Assembly (NCBI GenBank): GCA_025056455.1
Contig: JANWVY010000005.1
Span: 62,001-126,000 of the forward strand
DNA: 64,000 bases
Source: Bryobacteraceae bacterium
GTDB lineage: Bacteria > Acidobacteriota > Terriglobia > Bryobacterales > Bryobacteraceae
Reading direction: 5' to 3'
The notes under the pieces were generated by a model, which worked only from the letters and a program-made list of their open reading frames with translations, did no database searches and was not told the origin of the DNA. Shown here in pieces: positions 3,316 through 20,298 of this stretch (positions are counted from its first letter, which is position 1; each line of letters opens with the position of its first letter). Both the position numbers and the translations under genes were made by a program.

Positions 3316-3968
3316 TAGCGAAATACCTCCTCGCGGAAGCGAATGCGGGCTAGCGACCGGGTCTGCTTGAGCCAGTCTTCCATGGCTTGGTCAACCCGCT
3401 GGTTGACCAGAATGCGTTCAATATCTACAGCCAAATCCTCGAGCGAGGGAACGGCCTGATTCTGGGCCAGCAACTTGGGTTTGATCTCCTGGTTGAAGTA
3501 GGAGGCAACTTCTTCAGAACTCACTTGAACACCGGTGCGAAACCGAACCTCGATAAATTGAAGCGCCCGGGTTTGCAACTGGAAGAACTCGCGCAGTTCG
3601 TTCTCGTCGATTCCGCGGCGGGCCAACTCCTGGCGAAAGGCATCTTCCGTGGGAAACCTAGATTTTCGGAACTGTGCAATCTGCTCCAAAATGTCGGCCA
3701 TGGGTGGGACCGGATAGCGGGCTTCGTCCATTTCTTGAACCAATAACATCCGGTCAACGAGACGTTCCGCCGCTTGACGTTTGGCGGCAGGTGAAAGATC
3801 CGGCTCGCGACCATCTTGAAAAGCCGACAGCTGGATCTCGGAAAGGATCATGCTCTCGGTGATGACATTCGATCCAACGGTCACTGCGATGCGGTCGATG
3901 ATTTCGGCGCGGCTGCTTGCACTTGAGCCCAGCGCGAAGAGCACGATCGTAAGGAATCGGCCGAACAT
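3315..3968 (-). CDS. SurA N-domain-like periplasmic chaperone without a PPIase domain
   Basis: This 217-residue protein starts with a hydrophobic signal peptide (about residues 1-21). The segment after it (IIDRIAVTVGSNVITESMI) matches the start of the SurA N-terminal domain, and helices up to about residue 150 fit that fold. A last helix near residues 175-205 resembles the C-terminal SurA helix. The two parvulin PPIase domains of classical SurA (about 430 residues) are missing, so this should be a pure holdase-type chaperone in the periplasm. It lies between the barrel gene and the tamB-like gene, with TAATG overlaps at both ends. It therefore probably serves that assembly machine. The family call is good; the chaperone role is inferred. 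Confidence 0.75.
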   Translation of the reverse strand: MFGRFLTIVLFALGSSASSRAEIIDRIAVTVGSNVITESMILSEIQLSAFQDGREPDLSPAAKRQAAERLVDRMLLVQEMDEARYPVPPMADILEQIAQFRKSRFPTEDAFRQELARRGIDENELREFFQLQTRALQFIEVRFRTGVQVSSEEVASYFNQEIKPKLLAQNQAVPSLEDLAVDIERILVNQRVDQAMEDWLKQTRSLARIRFREEVFR

Positions 3969-6889
3969 TAGAATGCTTGCCCCAAGCTGAAATGGACCTG
4001 GAAACGGTTGACGCGCTGGTCAACCGGACTTCCAAGATTGTTAATGAGATCATTGATCGAGCCCCGGTAGCCGCGGAAGGCGGGAGAATTGACGCCGTAG
4101 GCAAAGTCGACGCGCACAGGACCAAGCGGTGTGCGGTAGCGGACTCCAAAACCAAGCGCATGCACCATGTAGTCGAAGTCCTGGCGGTTTTTTTGGTTCA
4201 CGCGGAAAGATATTGATTGAAAGTTGGTGTACACGTTGCCAGCGTCGTGGAAGATGACGCCTCCGATGTTATTCCCAAGAAACGGGAAACGAAGCTCAGT
4301 TTGGTTGAACAGCAACGTACGACCGCCAAGGGGAAAACCCGTGACGTTATCGCGTGGCCCGGCCTGGTTCTCCGGAAAGCCACGGTGGGAGACGGCGCCT
4401 CCTGCAAAGAACCGTTCTGGCAAGGGGATGTCAACATTTGCGTAGTTGCCAATCCAGCCGAAGGTCGTGTTGCGAGACAGGATGAGGTCGCGCGCGACGC
4501 GATGGTAGCTAGAATTCCGCGCTAGGATTCGCCCAAAGGCAGCTTCGCTGGCGAAGGCTTTATTGGCGAGAGAAAGGTCGAGAGAGTAGTAGAGCCCGCG
4601 GGTTGCGTTTAAGGGATCGTCACGGCGGTCATTAATCAAGGTCGCCGACACAAGACCGACTCGGACGGGCTGGGAGAACAGCGGGATGAGCGAGGGCTCA
4701 ATTTTCACGTCAGCAACCGAAACCCGGCGGTAGACAAACCGAAACTGGCTAGAGACGGCCCGCGTGAAGCGCTGGCCAAATTGCAAGGCGCCTTCAGCGC
4801 GGCGGGAAGCGAACGTTCGAACGTTCCGGGAGTCGTCGTAAAGAGCGGTCAGGGTCAGGTTTAAATTTTCCCGTCCTTGAAACTGGGGCGCCAGGTAAGT
4901 GAAAAGAGCCCGGTTTTGGAGGGTGGAAAAGCGGGTCTGTACGCCCACCGTATGACCCACTCCGAAGACGTTGAGGCGGCTCAAGCCCAACGACACGCGA
5001 GGCGCGAAGGCCGCGCCTCCAGCCGGAGAGGCAAGGCTAGTTTGGCTGCCCCCGAGGCGCCCGAATTCCGCGCCCAGGCCGCTGTTAAATGAATAGCGGC
5101 TGGCTTCTTCCATCTGATAGAGCACCCGTTTTTCGCGTGTGTTGCCGGTTGGGTTCTCCAAGGCCATATCCACCTTGGCGAAAATCCCCAGATCATAGAG
5201 TCGGCGTTGGCTGAAGACCATTGAGCTGAGCGATAGGGGGGCTCCGGGCTCAAGGCTGATGCGGCTTCTCACGAGCGAGGGGCGCGTCGAGGCCAGTCCG
5301 CTTACCTGAACATCCTGCACGTAGAGCCGGCGCCCTTCCTGAACGACATATTTCAGGTTCATCGTGTGCGGGCGGTCGGCGGGCGTTGAAATAATCTCCA
5401 TCGTCGCGTCTGGATAGCCGTTGTCGTAATAGAAGTTCAGGATATTGTCGCGATCGGTGGCGACATTAAAGGCGCTGTAGGGCTGACCCGGGGTTGACTG
5501 AAGAATAGATTGAACGTAGGGATACAGGCGGAGGTCGACCCCAGAAATCTCTAGGTCGTTGACAAACCACTGATCGCCTTCGAGGATTTCCAAGAAAACG
5601 GCGACGCTGCGAGGATTGCCTTTATAGTTGCGCTCAACCCGCGATTTCACCACCACATCCCGGAAACCGTTGGACCGATACAGCTCCTCGATTGCGGCTT
5701 GGTCTCGCGCCAGTTGTTCTTCGCTAAAGCGGCCGTGACGGTTGCGAAGCGGATGGGCAGTGAGAATCCCCATGCGCTCCCGGATCGTCATCATATCGAA
5801 ATACCGGTTGCCGGTGACCTCAAGATGGTCGAGGCGGTATCGAGCTCCGCGATCGATTGTGAATTCGATGTTTCGCTCGTCGGCCGAAACTTGCTGCTGA
5901 GTAAAACCGACTTTGGCGTCGAAGTAGCCCTGCGCCTGAAAATGTTGCGTGATGTTACGCTGGCCTTCTACCAGCAGATCTTGATCAATGGATTGCTCCT
6001 GGTAGATGGGTACCAAGTCTTTGAGTTGGCCCCTTGACAATCTGGCGCCACTTGCTTTCACGGTCACCTTCGGACCAGCTTCGATGCGCAGTTCGGGCCG
6101 TACCTGGTTTTCATCAGGGTCGTAAACGGCAGAAGTGAGATCGACTTTAGCCAGCAGGAAATCATTTTTCAAGTAAGAGCGACGCACGCGGTCAATGCCT
6201 TGTTGCAGGCGCTGGTCGGAAAGTTGCTTCCAGCCCAACAAACCCCACCATCGCATCCAGCGGGTGGCGCGCAGCAGCTCAGACTCGTCGCGCTTTAAGG
6301 AGCCAGCAATGCGGGGCCGGGCGAAATAGGCGCGAGGGCCGGGGTTGATCAGGAACTGGATGTGCAGTTCGTATTGATCGGGAAAGCGTTCCACAAGAGG
6401 TTGGATCCGCGCCGAATAAAACCCGTTGGCGCGCAGCACTTGCTGCAAACCTTGAATTGCGCTCACCATCTGGTCATCGCTGTAGCGGGCGCCAAGCTCG
6501 AGTTTCGTCGCGCTTAACAGCTGTTCGCGGTTGGGAGGCTCAACAAATCCCTCCACCGTAACCCTCGTAATGAACCAGTTCTGACGAGTGAGAAAGGTGA
6601 GAACGACTTGCTGGTCCTGCAGCTGGGCGTCAACAGCAATTTCGTCATAGCGACCCGTCGCATAGAGCCGCTGGATCGCAGAGCGAACGCTGATGGCGCT
6701 AAGCCGCTGGCCGGGAGCAATTCCCACCAGCCGATTGAGTTCACTCGCAGGCAGGGGCTGAGCGGGTGGCACAAAGCGCACCTCCGCGACTTCTTTACCT
6801 TCGTAATCGGAAGGCGCACCGCTGGCCAGACCTGCCCAGAGAACTCCCAAAATGGCGATCGCGCTTGGCCAAGAAACGCGGGACCACAC
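3968..6889 (-). CDS. Omp85-family outer membrane protein (TamA/BamA-like) with POTRA repeats
   Basis: The 973-residue product has a signal peptide (about 1-24), several POTRA domains over roughly residues 30-590 and a C-terminal 16-strand-type barrel. Two POTRA-like segments are VEGFVEPPNREQLLSATK and VTGNRYFDMMTIRERM. The barrel holds the AGGAVSHRGFPEN segment with the RGF motif of barrel strand 6-loop 6. Omp85 proteins fold or insert outer-membrane proteins. A second, more typical BamA lies at 30290-33253, so this paralogue, next to a TamB-like gene, is best read as the TamA-side partner. The start is GTG, and no in-frame ATG lies just upstream. The gene is divergent from the ThiF-like gene with 53 bp between them. 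Confidence 0.85.
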   Translation of the reverse strand: MWSRVSWPSAIAILGVLWAGLASGAPSDYEGKEVAEVRFVPPAQPLPASELNRLVGIAPGQRLSAISVRSAIQRLYATGRYDEIAVDAQLQDQQVVLTFLTRQNWFITRVTVEGFVEPPNREQLLSATKLELGARYSDDQMVSAIQGLQQVLRANGFYSARIQPLVERFPDQYELHIQFLINPGPRAYFARPRIAGSLKRDESELLRATRWMRWWGLLGWKQLSDQRLQQGIDRVRRSYLKNDFLLAKVDLTSAVYDPDENQVRPELRIEAGPKVTVKASGARLSRGQLKDLVPIYQEQSIDQDLLVEGQRNITQHFQAQGYFDAKVGFTQQQVSADERNIEFTIDRGARYRLDHLEVTGNRYFDMMTIRERMGILTAHPLRNRHGRFSEEQLARDQAAIEELYRSNGFRDVVVKSRVERNYKGNPRSVAVFLEILEGDQWFVNDLEISGVDLRLYPYVQSILQSTPGQPYSAFNVATDRDNILNFYYDNGYPDATMEIISTPADRPHTMNLKYVVQEGRRLYVQDVQVSGLASTRPSLVRSRISLEPGAPLSLSSMVFSQRRLYDLGIFAKVDMALENPTGNTREKRVLYQMEEASRYSFNSGLGAEFGRLGGSQTSLASPAGGAAFAPRVSLGLSRLNVFGVGHTVGVQTRFSTLQNRALFTYLAPQFQGRENLNLTLTALYDDSRNVRTFASRRAEGALQFGQRFTRAVSSQFRFVYRRVSVADVKIEPSLIPLFSQPVRVGLVSATLINDRRDDPLNATRGLYYSLDLSLANKAFASEAAFGRILARNSSYHRVARDLILSRNTTFGWIGNYANVDIPLPERFFAGGAVSHRGFPENQAGPRDNVTGFPLGGRTLLFNQTELRFPFLGNNIGGVIFHDAGNVYTNFQSISFRVNQKNRQDFDYMVHALGFGVRYRTPLGPVRVDFAYGVNSPAFRGYRGSINDLINNLGSPVDQRVNRFQVHFSLGQAF

Positions 6890-16846: not shown

Positions 16847-17549
16847 GGTGACGTCCTAGACAGGGTCATTGTTTAAATACAGCCCAATTCATCGCGGCCT
16901 GAGCTCAACTCCCGGGGCCATGGTTCCCGTCGAACCGACCCAGCCAAGTTCATCGGAGTCGGTGATTGAGCCCTGAACCACCCCGGTGACGCGAAGCAAA
17001 GTGGGGACACCATCGTAAACCTGGCCGGTGATTCGTGCCGTCACCCCCCGGGATAGATCGGTAGGGGGAGAAAAAAGGTTTAGTGGTTATGCCTGTAGCC
17101 GGGCGTGGAACCGAAGTGAGGTTGTAAAAACGGAATGCAGGACAAGCGAGAAGGTGGGTGGGCCGGTCGCAGCGGACGAAGATCAAGCTTGGGTTTCGCG
17201 CATTGAGAGGGGACTTCGCCGATCGTCACGTCCGCTGCGATCCGGAGCGTTTCCCTTTCTGGAGGTTAGTTGCCTTTATCTTAAAAAACGTCAACAAATC
17301 CGTCTATTAGATATTTCAGTTTTGGTTGTTCGATAGAACCGATGAATGGGAGGGGCCTGCACGCGCCTGGCAAGAACCTTGTTTTCATCGTGCAAAGGCA
17401 GATTCAACGGCCTTGTGCCAAGCTCCGAGGGAGCGGAGGGACCGAGTCGGAAACCTGAGTCGTCCCCGCTGCTTTAACCTGCACACGGGGAACCCGTGTT
17501 CCGGTTTCCGGCGCGTGTTCCGCCTAGCCGTTTCAAAGTTACTTCGGGC
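16847..17549. other. Intergenic region, 703 bp, no convincing gene
   Basis: The stretch lies between the HD-GYP gene and the flavin reductase-like gene, both on the minus strand. Short open frames here show no recognisable protein. An AT-rich part (about 17278-17335) is followed by a block of nested inverted repeats (17331-17505), listed separately as a possible structured RNA. The promoter of the HD-GYP gene should also lie in the left part, but I see no clear box. Confidence 0.6.
17331..17505 (+). ncRNA. Possible structured RNA (consecutive hairpins)
   Basis: Five stems can be drawn. CGATGAA (17340-17346) pairs with TTCATCG (17384-17390). AAGGC (17395-17399) pairs with GCCTT (17410-17414). 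GCTCC (17422-17426) pairs with GGAGC (17430-17434). GGGAC (17438-17442) pairs with GTCCC (17462-17466), enclosing TCGG/CTGA. ACACGGG (17483-17489) pairs with CCCGTGT (17493-17499). The TCGG/CTGA stem has a G-U pair only if the plus strand is transcribed. I do not recognise a known riboswitch or sRNA family. Confidence 0.3.
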
Positions 17550-18182: not shown

Positions 18183-18268
18183 GGGAATGGTCACCTTCTA
18201 AAGACACCACTTTTTAGTGGATCTATGATGCTTTCGGAGTTACACTGAAGCTACGGGGGTGCACCTGC

Positions 18269-19165
18269 ATGCTTGGACTGACGACCACTCAGGCTCCCTG
18301 GATCGAGGATGCCCGCAAGGCAGGGCAAATCTATATCTCCCAACCCTACGAATTGTACTCCGAAGAAAACCACCAGGCGTGGAAACTGCTTTATGAGCGA
18401 ATGACGCCACGGTGGGAACGCTACGCCAATCCGGTATTCTTAGACGGTCTGAGCAAGCTCGGACTCACTTCCGAACGAATCCCAAAGCTCGATGAGATCA
18501 ACCGTGCGCTGGCGCCCTTGACCGGGTTTCGCGCCCGGGCGGTAAGCGGCTACATTCCGGCCTTTCGCTTTTTTGAAAGCTTGCGACAGAGGGAGTTTCC
18601 CACAACCATTACGATTCGACCGCCAGACCGGCTTGACTACCTTCCAGAGCCCGATATTTTTCACGACGTAGCCGGTCATGTTCCGATGCACACGGACCGT
18701 CGCTTCGCCGACACACTGGTTCGTTTTGGCCAATGCGCGCACCGTGCGGCGGAGGCGGCTGAAGCCATCCGGGATTCGCAGCGCAAGCGGGCGCGACTTG
18801 AGTCTATCACCCGCGCGATGGCTCGTTTCTTCTGGTTTACTATCGAGTTCGGCCTCATCCGCACGCGGGCCGGCTTGCGGGCCTATGGAAGCGGTTTATT
18901 GAGCTCGTACGGAGAACTCGCGCACGCCCTGGAATCCACCGACGTTCACCGACCAAACCTTCAACTGGATTGGGTCATCCACCAGAGTTTTGAAATTGAT
19001 CGATACCAGCCGCTGTTGTTTGTCATCGACAACTTTGACCAACTTTATGAGGCGATCGAGCAGCTGGAACGGATGATTCTAGACAACCGGCTCGGAGAAG
19101 TCGCCCCCGGCAAACCGGAGGTGGACACCGAGGAAGTGATGCAACTGGTGGCCGGCCACAACTAG
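18269..19165 (+). CDS. phhA: Phenylalanine 4-monooxygenase
   Basis: At 298 residues this has the length of bacterial phenylalanine hydroxylases. The iron site is complete: H132 and H137 in PDIFHDVAGHVPMH and E193 in FFWFTIEFGLI. Pterin and substrate segments such as SGYIPAFRFFESL and SYGELAHALES are present. It converts phenylalanine to tyrosine with tetrahydropterin and oxygen in the cytoplasm. The usual pterin-carbinolamine dehydratase (phhB) is not next to it. The next gene is a LysR-type regulator, but the strong operator lies after phhA, so control of phhA by that regulator is not shown. Confidence 0.95.
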   Translation: MLGLTTTQAPWIEDARKAGQIYISQPYELYSEENHQAWKLLYERMTPRWERYANPVFLDGLSKLGLTSERIPKLDEINRALAPLTGFRARAVSGYIPAFRFFESLRQREFPTTITIRPPDRLDYLPEPDIFHDVAGHVPMHTDRRFADTLVRFGQCAHRAAEAAEAIRDSQRKRARLESITRAMARFFWFTIEFGLIRTRAGLRAYGSGLLSSYGELAHALESTDVHRPNLQLDWVIHQSFEIDRYQPLLFVIDNFDQLYEAIEQLERMILDNRLGEVAPGKPEVDTEEVMQLVAGHN

Positions 19166-19290
19166 GCCCAAACGCGCCGCGAGCTTCACGAGAGAGCTGA
19201 CTCGGTGCGGGACGGGAGCGCGAATCCCGTACCAGCGGCATCTTCAAGTCAGATCAGCCTCCAGCGCTTTCCCAAAACGCGGCATACATC

Positions 19291-19330
19291 GACAATTAAA
19301 AACAATAGATCTGCATTGTTAGAGATTGTC
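19291..19330. promoter_or_regulatory. Four-part symmetric operator upstream of the NhaR-like gene
   Basis: The pattern is GACAAT-N4-AACAAT-N8-ATTGTT-N4-ATTGTC. The two left half-sites (ACAAT at 19292 and 19302) and the two right ones (ATTGT at 19315 and 19325) are each 10 bp apart, and all four are symmetric about 19310.5. One helical turn between half-sites suits a tetrameric LysR-type regulator. The right end lies at the -35 distance from a TATAAT at 19352-19357. Confidence 0.65.
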
Positions 19331-19351
19331 AAAGTAAGCAGAGGCGCGAGG

Positions 19352-19357
19352 TATAAT
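19352..19357 (+). promoter_or_regulatory. Candidate -10 box of the NhaR-like gene
   Basis: A perfect TATAAT lies 11 bp before the ATG at 19369. The start of transcription would be near 19364, leaving a leader of about five bases, so the mRNA would be almost leaderless. TTGTCA (19326-19331) resembles a -35 box but is 20 bp away, longer than the usual 17. Confidence 0.45.
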
Positions 19358-19368
19358 GCGTCCAGCGA

Positions 19369-20298
19369 ATGGAATGGCTGAACTATCATCATTTGCTTTA
19401 CTTCTACGTGGTCGCCCGAGAAGGGAGCATCGCCAAAGCCAGTGAGCAGCTTTTGCTCGCGCAGCCGACGATTAGCGGCCAGATTCATGCCCTTGAGGAA
19501 AACATCGGCGAAAAGCTCTTTCAGCGCAGCGGGCGGCGCTTAGTATTGACCGAGTTTGGGCGTACGGTTTACCAGTATGCAGAAGAAATTTTCAGTTTGG
19601 GCCGGGAGCTACAGGATTTCATCCGCGGCCGCCCGACCGGAAAACCGCTTCGCCTCGTGGTGGGCGTGGCCGACACGCTTCCAAAAACGTTAGTTCACCG
19701 GCTTCTATCACCCGTATTTCAAATCCGCGAAGCGGTGCACCTGATTTGCCACGAGGATCACCCCGAAAACTTGCTCGTCAGTCTCTCTCTGCACAAGCTG
19801 GACGTCATGCTTACGGACACGCTCGTGACGTCGTCTGCGCGGATCCGTTCTTATCATCATCTGGTTGGATCGAGCGGGGTTTCGTTTTTCGCAACGGGCG
19901 AGCTGGTAAAGAGGTACAGTGAGGGGTTTCCAAAGAGCTTGGACGGCGCACCGTTTTTGTTGCCTCTGGAGAACACAGGCTTGCGCCGCATGATCGAACA
20001 CTGGTTCAACGCCCAAGGAATTCGGCCGCGGCTCGTGGCTGAATTTCAGGACACTGCACTGGCAAAAGCCTTCGGTCAAGGGGGTCTGGGGATTTTCTGC
20101 GCGCCAACCGTGGTTTCGCGTGAAGTCGAAAGCGCTTACCGGGTGGTCAAGCTCGGCGATGTTCCAGACCTACAATTCAAGGTCTATGCGGTGTCCATCG
20201 AGCGGAAGTTCAAACACCCGGCGGTGCTGGCGATCCTGGAGGCGGCTCGGTTTTCTTTGTTTGGCGAAGGACGGGACTCGAAAAACGGCGAGAGTTAA
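19369..20298 (+). CDS. LysR-type regulator of the NhaR group
   Basis: The 309-residue protein begins WLNYHHLLYFYVVAREGSI, the typical opening of NhaR, followed by a winged helix-turn-helix (SEQLLLAQPTISGQI) within residues 1-65. A LysR substrate-binding domain fills the rest. NhaR of enterobacteria activates the Na+/H+ antiporter gene nhaA in response to sodium, but no antiporter gene is nearby, so the target here is open. No Shine-Dalgarno sequence is seen before the ATG, which fits a near-leaderless mRNA. The four-part operator just upstream suggests autoregulation. The next gene starts 124 bp after the stop. Confidence 0.85.
   Translation: MEWLNYHHLLYFYVVAREGSIAKASEQLLLAQPTISGQIHALEENIGEKLFQRSGRRLVLTEFGRTVYQYAEEIFSLGRELQDFIRGRPTGKPLRLVVGVADTLPKTLVHRLLSPVFQIREAVHLICHEDHPENLLVSLSLHKLDVMLTDTLVTSSARIRSYHHLVGSSGVSFFATGELVKRYSEGFPKSLDGAPFLLPLENTGLRRMIEHWFNAQGIRPRLVAEFQDTALAKAFGQGGLGIFCAPTVVSREVESAYRVVKLGDVPDLQFKVYAVSIERKFKHPAVLAILEAARFSLFGEGRDSKNGES

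Follow-up and report, generated by a model that had tools for sequence, protein, structure and literature searches.

What binds the symmetric array that lies directly upstream of a gene for a LysR-type regulator in this genome, and what does it do to that gene? In the window, by which we mean the whole 64-kb stretch of DNA that was analysed, GACAAT-N4-AACAAT-N8-ATTGTT-N4-ATTGTC occupies positions 19291-19330 and lies 38 bp upstream of the regulator ATG (Table 1). A preliminary description, made from the sequence alone, had read the array as the tetramer site of an autoregulated, NhaR-like regulator with a nearly leaderless mRNA. The question is which parts of the array are conserved in related organisms, which protein would recognize them, and whether their position relative to the promoter suits repression or activation.

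Table 1. Coordinates of the features discussed, numbered from the first letter of the window
Feature	Coordinates	Strand	Basis or remark
NhaR-type LysR regulator, 309 aa (P0001)	19369..20298	+	NF008284, HTH_1, LysR_substrate
Phenylalanine 4-monooxygenase-type gene (phenylalanine hydroxylase)	18269-19165	same as regulator	upstream of regulator
Half-site GACAAT	19291..19296	+	sequence
Half-site AACAAT	19301..19306	+	sequence
Half-site ATTGTT	19315..19320	+	sequence
Half-site ATTGTC	19325..19330	+	sequence
Whole imperfect dyad	19282..19339	.	18/25 bases per arm, 8-base centre
Distal NhaR box CATCGACAATTAAAAACAA, aligned with the conserved ATCGACAAATAGATA of orthologs	19287..19305	+	family matrix
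Proximal T-N11-A box TAGAGATTGTCAA	19320..19332	+	family matrix; offset 29 from distal box
Predicted -10 element TATAAT	19352..19357	+	61 bp from distal box start
Predicted 5-nt leader	19364..19368	+	start site inferred 7 nt after -10
Possible second, weaker NhaR-type site	17298..17342	+	17.7 bits, ~2 kb upstream of nhaR

The array and its surroundings

The gene downstream of the array was called NhaR-like at the outset, and its product passes the NCBIfam model for NhaR (NF008284) with 242.4 bits against a cut-off of 219. Its downstream neighbour in the window is a SpoU methyltransferase-type gene. The nearest named relatives of the genome are metagenome genomes of Bryobacterales/Bryobacteraceae (Acidobacteriota). 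No divergent target gene is recognisable in the window; the upstream neighbour is co-directional, and the only divergent ORF picked mechanically at this locus (74 aa) has no Pfam match. Control of an NhaA antiporter, the feature from which NhaR takes its name, appears unlikely here because the genome, which is 98.94% complete, contains no match to PF06965, and there is none beside the regulator.

The four half-sites lie where they were first described and their 24 bases are exactly symmetric, while the extension of the dyad into the flanks is imperfect. The one-turn spacing attributed to them holds within each pair (10 and 10 bp) and fails between the pairs (14 bp). The dyad region has a G+C content of 33%, compared with 58% for the window.

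The regularity of the array, which had been called rare, is rare within the 203-bp intergenic region, where a double-hexamer palindrome appeared in none of 1000 first-order Markov copies. Across the window the symmetry is not very rare. When any words are allowed there is one such palindrome in the window and six in ten Markov windows of 64 kb, and for one five-letter word repeated four-fold the counts are one in the window and one in 30 Markov windows. Because the palindrome form recurs in simulated windows, symmetry alone is unconvincing at this scale. Chance symmetry in an A-T-rich intergenic stretch would fit this rate of 0.6 palindromes per simulated 64-kb window, but it is very improbable in view of the 1000 intergenic copies and of an independent family matrix, described below, that picks the same bases.

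The array might also be a DNA or RNA hairpin, for example the terminator of the phenylalanine hydroxylase gene, and not a protein site. The nested stem does fold (DNA, -6.2 kcal/mol, z -2.0), with a stability equalled or exceeded by 9 of 200 shuffles. However, the stems are A-T-rich with internal loops, no T-run stands behind them, a terminator scan was negative at the array, and the array begins 125 bp past the stop of the upstream gene. We consider a hairpin function highly unlikely. A repeat family or the end of a mobile element was rejected as well, since neither pattern nor similarity searches turned up the array anywhere else in the genome.

A two-box site in orthologs

Orthologs were collected from 150 genomes of the family, 12 genomes of the genus, and a scan of named genomes; they show 51-68% identity and come from several phyla, as taken from the record titles. 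The family genomes supplied loci for 30 of their best matches (14 further matches of at least 48% identity are without loci there, and some of these reappear in a family-wide search for the site), and a further scan contributed the best 80 of 457 matches. Merging 15 duplicates reduced the 113 loci to 98 distinct ones, the window included. Of the 97 other loci, 52 carry, 54-58 bp ahead of the start codon, a sequence that agrees with GACAAATAGATAATTT in 10 or more of 16 bases. The column counts over these 52, which were selected by the consensus that they then define, read GACAAATAGATA, followed by T[CA]G at 28-30, CGA at 38-40, and a TATRRT-like element at 43. If the match may lie anywhere in 110 bp, 69 of the 98 loci reach 10 of 16 bases, compared with 20 of 98 when shuffled, and it is the fixed position that is the rare part. 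The proximal box is T-N11-A, usually TCG-N7-CGA. Scored with leave-one-out matrices, the best second box lies at offset 28 in 48 of the 52 loci and reaches at least 5 bits in 45.

The 45 loci outside this group had no part in the matrices. In thirteen of them the distal matrix reaches 11 bits or more within 130 bp; the second box then lies at 28 in ten and at 29 in one (L034), and is absent in two. The other 32 contain no distal match of 11 bits in that interval.

The symmetric array itself was found in only 1 of 237 family genomes with up to three mismatches allowed, and the 130 bp preceding nhaR in the closest ortholog found (L032, 68% identical) are without a site (distal score -6.8 bits). 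The comparison does not support the four-fold symmetry as the feature that matters. The preliminary description had made its reading depend on conservation of the half-sites in orthologous upstream regions; they are not conserved as an array, while the boxes that underlie them are. What the relatives conserve is a two-box site of lower symmetry and constant spacing, from which the window array looks derived. In L032 a site of 21.3 bits stands directly before the start codon of the next gene (ORF 3367-4161), which is 49% identical to the methyltransferase gene downstream of the window nhaR. Because this site precedes the methyltransferase gene and not nhaR, NhaR-type sites seem to move in the lineage of the window.

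Matrices built from the 52 relatives, with the window excluded, recognize both boxes of the array. The distal box ranks first of 127,964 positions (14.46 bits, p 2.6e-6 per position); its 14.5 bits compare with a median of 23.6 and a tenth percentile of 10.8 for the relatives, each scored with itself left out. The 13-base proximal matrix gives the window box 9.79 bits (rank 33 of 127,976, p 1.7e-4 per position), the best score within 19165-19380, and the median of the relatives is 11.4 bits. None of 60 simulated 64-kb windows reached the pair score of 24.2. A whole-site model, R1, was built from 51 of the 52 rows (L111 was omitted from R1 and kept in the matrices). Applied unfiltered to the window, it places 19286-19338 first of 12 matches (E 0.02, 11.5 bits). 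With 150 of 221 candidates scored in the genome that contains the window, R1 does not list the window site and ranks two other places higher (15.2 and 14.4 bits), both of which are inside ORFs and look like chance; a family-wide run with stricter filters gave no match in this genome at E <= 0.01. The full R1 model fits the window site poorly where the array has changed.

That change can be followed in the letters. T-N11-A boxes are present at both sites, TCGACAATTAAAA (19289-19301) and TAGAGATTGTCAA, with centres 31 bp apart or about three helical turns. They read TCGACAAT-TAAA-A and, on the opposite strand, TTGACAAT-CTCT-A, with ACAAT next in each. Judged by these sequences, each window box has become nearly a mirror-image copy of the other. 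Palindromes of this kind are bound by several regulator families, and the array could be the operator of another protein that controls nhaR, for example a response regulator or a GntR/TetR-type repressor, as the perfect inverted words are not conserved in relatives. That the NhaR-linked matrix ranks the array first in the window, with a second box at nearly the conserved spacing, makes another regulator an improbable owner.

The 17.7-bit score of the possible second site in the window was reached by one of 60 simulated windows, and the second-best R1 match in the window (17307-17344, E 0.28) falls in the same place. This site is similar to the TTTGTCTAATAGATGTTT sites that follow nhaR in L028, L042, L063, and L100. 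There is no fitting target ORF nearby, and it is perhaps a relic.

Genes beside the site in relatives

We identified 48 R1 sites in 32 of the 150 family genomes. Among them 25 are nhaR promoter sites, 9 others are no more than 3 kb from nhaR, and 4 share its contig at a greater distance; 9 more are in other parts of nhaR-containing genomes, and 1 is in a genome that lacks nhaR. The 25 promoter sites are partly circular because such sites built R1; the other 23 are not. Of these, 22 are in genomes with an nhaR ortholog, which only 41 of the 150 genomes have (the window's own genome not counted). The ortholog list for this tally comprises 44 matches of at least 48% identity and leaves out an 85-residue fragment (G088:C27:71185). 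Three of the 22 sites (L152, L167, and L173, at ~1501) are located just before Peptidase_M48 ORFs, and one of these three sites is in G028, whose own nhaR promoter (L056) is without a box. An R1 match before a dehydrogenase-like ORF in the genome of the closest relative (E 0.0019) was set aside as probable chance.

A total of 87 divergent ORFs were picked mechanically, some in wrong frames (e.g. L013), and the Pfam counts for them are rough. Among the 48 beside a box there are 18 Ribosomal_S30AE, 6 Peptidase_M48, 3 zf-dskA_traR, and 2 Zn_ribbon_TFIIB matches, with one each for TerC, carbonic anhydrase, and others; a single ORF may count in more than one family. The 39 outside the group of 52, the window's included, contain 3 S30AE, 2 M48, and one Na+/H+ antiporter family match. 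Thirteen of the 52 loci have a divergent -10 element (at least 5 of 6 bases) around -25 to -20 relative to the box, where 2.5 were expected and control intervals gave 0 and 1. Measured from a visible divergent -10, the boxes are at about -36 and -66.

In the genome of the window, neither the five M48 genes nor the one S30AE gene has a good site in the flanks that were fetched (best pair score 10.1). GACAAT-N4-AACAAT with one mismatch occurs at 8 other places in the genome, compared with 1 for the reversed-pattern control, and the family distal core with one mismatch occurs at 13, compared with 23 for the reversed control. The search for a regulon of the array elsewhere in this genome, which had been proposed with the first description, found none.

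Several observations link the conserved site to NhaR. In the 3.1 kb around nhaAR of E. coli K-12, the best match to the proximal matrix on both strands is TCGTAAAAAACGA, approximately 90 bp before nhaA; this match is a perfect TCG-N7-CGA palindrome (L179 487-499). The two-box scan in E. coli is not clear, with a best score of 12.0 bits and the second box at offset 30; the single-box scan is clear. One study gives an in silico consensus for E. coli NhaR, TCgaAAAAatCtA, and calls the NhaR DNA motif not well characterized (PMC6307784). The proximal boxes of the relatives match this consensus at a mean of 7.2 of 13 positions, compared with 3.7 for shuffled boxes. For the window boxes the count ranges from 6 to 9 of 13 and varies with the box and the strand. 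The recognition helix of the window protein, QPTISGQI, carries at each position the commonest or near-commonest residue among relatives with the box; position 40 is H in the window and R in 42 and H in 6 of the 52 relatives. Based on the co-occurrence of non-circular R1 sites with nhaR, the match before E. coli nhaA, the consensus, and the recognition helix, the conserved two-box site is most likely the predicted pair of binding sites of NhaR itself.

Promoter position and the likely sign of control

The leader of about five bases suggested for the window nhaR agrees with a predicted start near 19364 and an ORF start at 19369. None of four SD-like 4-mers tried is present in the 20 nt before the start codon. 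The nearly leaderless start is strengthened by the relatives with the box: in 43 of 52 a -10-like hexamer, matching in four or more of 6 bases with A2 and T6 among them, ends 5-8 nt before the start codon, compared with 6.5 in shuffles, and an SD-like word is found in 4 of 52. Because the -10 element is close to the start codon and SD-like words are few, we infer that the nhaR mRNA of these relatives is leaderless. Upstream of nhaR in L030 there are two boxes at the usual spacing and a -10 at 41, and the start codon is approximately 12 bp farther away and preceded by GGAGG. This locus may represent a switch from a leaderless nhaR mRNA to one with a leader.

Placement of the array at the -35 position is roughly correct. 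A 17-bp spacer would put the -35 hexamer at 19329-19334 (TCAAAG), and the outer right half-site overlaps it by two bases; a strict sigma-70 scan finds no promoter at the array, its two hits being at 18201 and 18633. In 30 of 52 relatives a -10 element (at least 5 of 6 bases) stands 42-44 from the start of the distal box, mostly at 43. The window -10 is 18 bp farther from the boxes than in relatives, which places the window boxes at about -69 and -38 relative to the predicted start of nhaR.

These positions suggest how the site could work. The two boxes fit the proposal of two dyads bound by a LysR tetramer, and an NhaR-type tetramer would bridge the two T-N11-A boxes. Autoregulation, also proposed for the window gene, is supported as a likely role by the matching two-box site before nhaR in relatives. 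Roughly half of the orthologs examined show a putative ancestral arrangement in which the proximal TCG-N7-CGA occupies the spacer between the -35 and -10 elements of a leaderless nhaR promoter, a position in which binding would repress nhaR. Viewed from the divergent gene, commonly S30AE or M48/HtpX-like, the same boxes at about -66 and -36 would occupy the recognition and activation positions. The window operator would have lost its divergent partner and now serve nhaR alone, and its boxes at about -69 and -38 suggest, by their geometry, activation of nhaR instead of a block.

We have here two questions of unequal strength, the identity of the site and the sign of its effect. It is quite probable that the array is an NhaR-type operator of its own gene in which the former target has been lost, the boxes have been mirrored, and the geometry would activate nhaR. 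The weakest step is activation of nhaR in the window, which the geometry makes the more likely outcome. LysR regulators often repress their own genes, and the array could be an NhaR operator that still represses nhaR by blocking polymerase at -35, a reading that differs in sign only. The outer right half-site touches the -35 and the ancestral site overlaps the nhaR promoter. However, the window boxes at about -69 and -38 are not over the -35/-10 elements, and the lack of a sigma-70 promoter by the strict scan suits an activated promoter better. We regard continued self-repression as a real possibility that falls somewhat short of an even chance.

More tentatively, the relatives may carry a rigid switch characteristic of an NhaR clade, in which one protein would shut off its own leaderless mRNA and activate a divergent gene for a ribosome-hibernation factor or membrane protease, and which in the window would have been rebuilt for possible self-activation. 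Such a clade would be old; by record title it spans Acidobacteriota, Planctomycetota, Myxococcales, and other groups. If this is true, the ionic or alkaline signal known for E. coli NhaR would feed into ribosome hibernation and membrane quality control rather than into an antiporter. The window variant represents a natural case of an operator shifted relative to its promoter, in which the position of the boxes alone may set self-repression or self-activation.

Comparison with known systems

The comparison of orthologs gives a concrete candidate NhaR site with fixed spacing that is common to several phyla, and it links an NhaR-type regulator to ribosome-hibernation and M48 genes. Among titles in the literature, with subscription papers mostly outside the scope of the search, we found no work joining NhaR with HtpX, ribosome hibernation, or leaderless mRNA. 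The link fits a reported E. coli finding that deletion of nhaR leads to more RMF and 100S ribosomes (PMC10003395); this effect parallels the S30AE genes beside nhaR in relatives. As in E. coli, where NhaR is known from nhaAR, osmC, and pgaA, the protein passes the NhaR model, and a TCG-N7-CGA box precedes E. coli nhaA. The arrangement of the genes differs. In E. coli, nhaR comes second in an operon and has nhaA beside it, whereas the window nhaR stands behind its own predicted promoter with almost no leader, in a genome where no NhaA-family gene was found.

LysR systems, according to one account, have sites near -65 and -35 that serve as recognition and activation positions (PMC11602165). The site described here shares with divergent-target systems two boxes approximately three turns apart, which in relatives are at about -66 and -36 of the divergent gene where its -10 is visible. 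The window differs from such systems in that it has no divergent target, its boxes are at about -69 and -38 of the predicted start of the regulator gene itself, and their mirror symmetry is nearly perfect.

The cI mRNA of phage lambda transcribed from PRM is a leaderless mRNA for an autoregulated repressor. The nhaR transcript is similar in that it is predicted to start at the start codon or a few bases from it. Unlike cI, the regulator is of the LysR type, its starts are predicted, and the geometry is found in many orthologs of several phyla.
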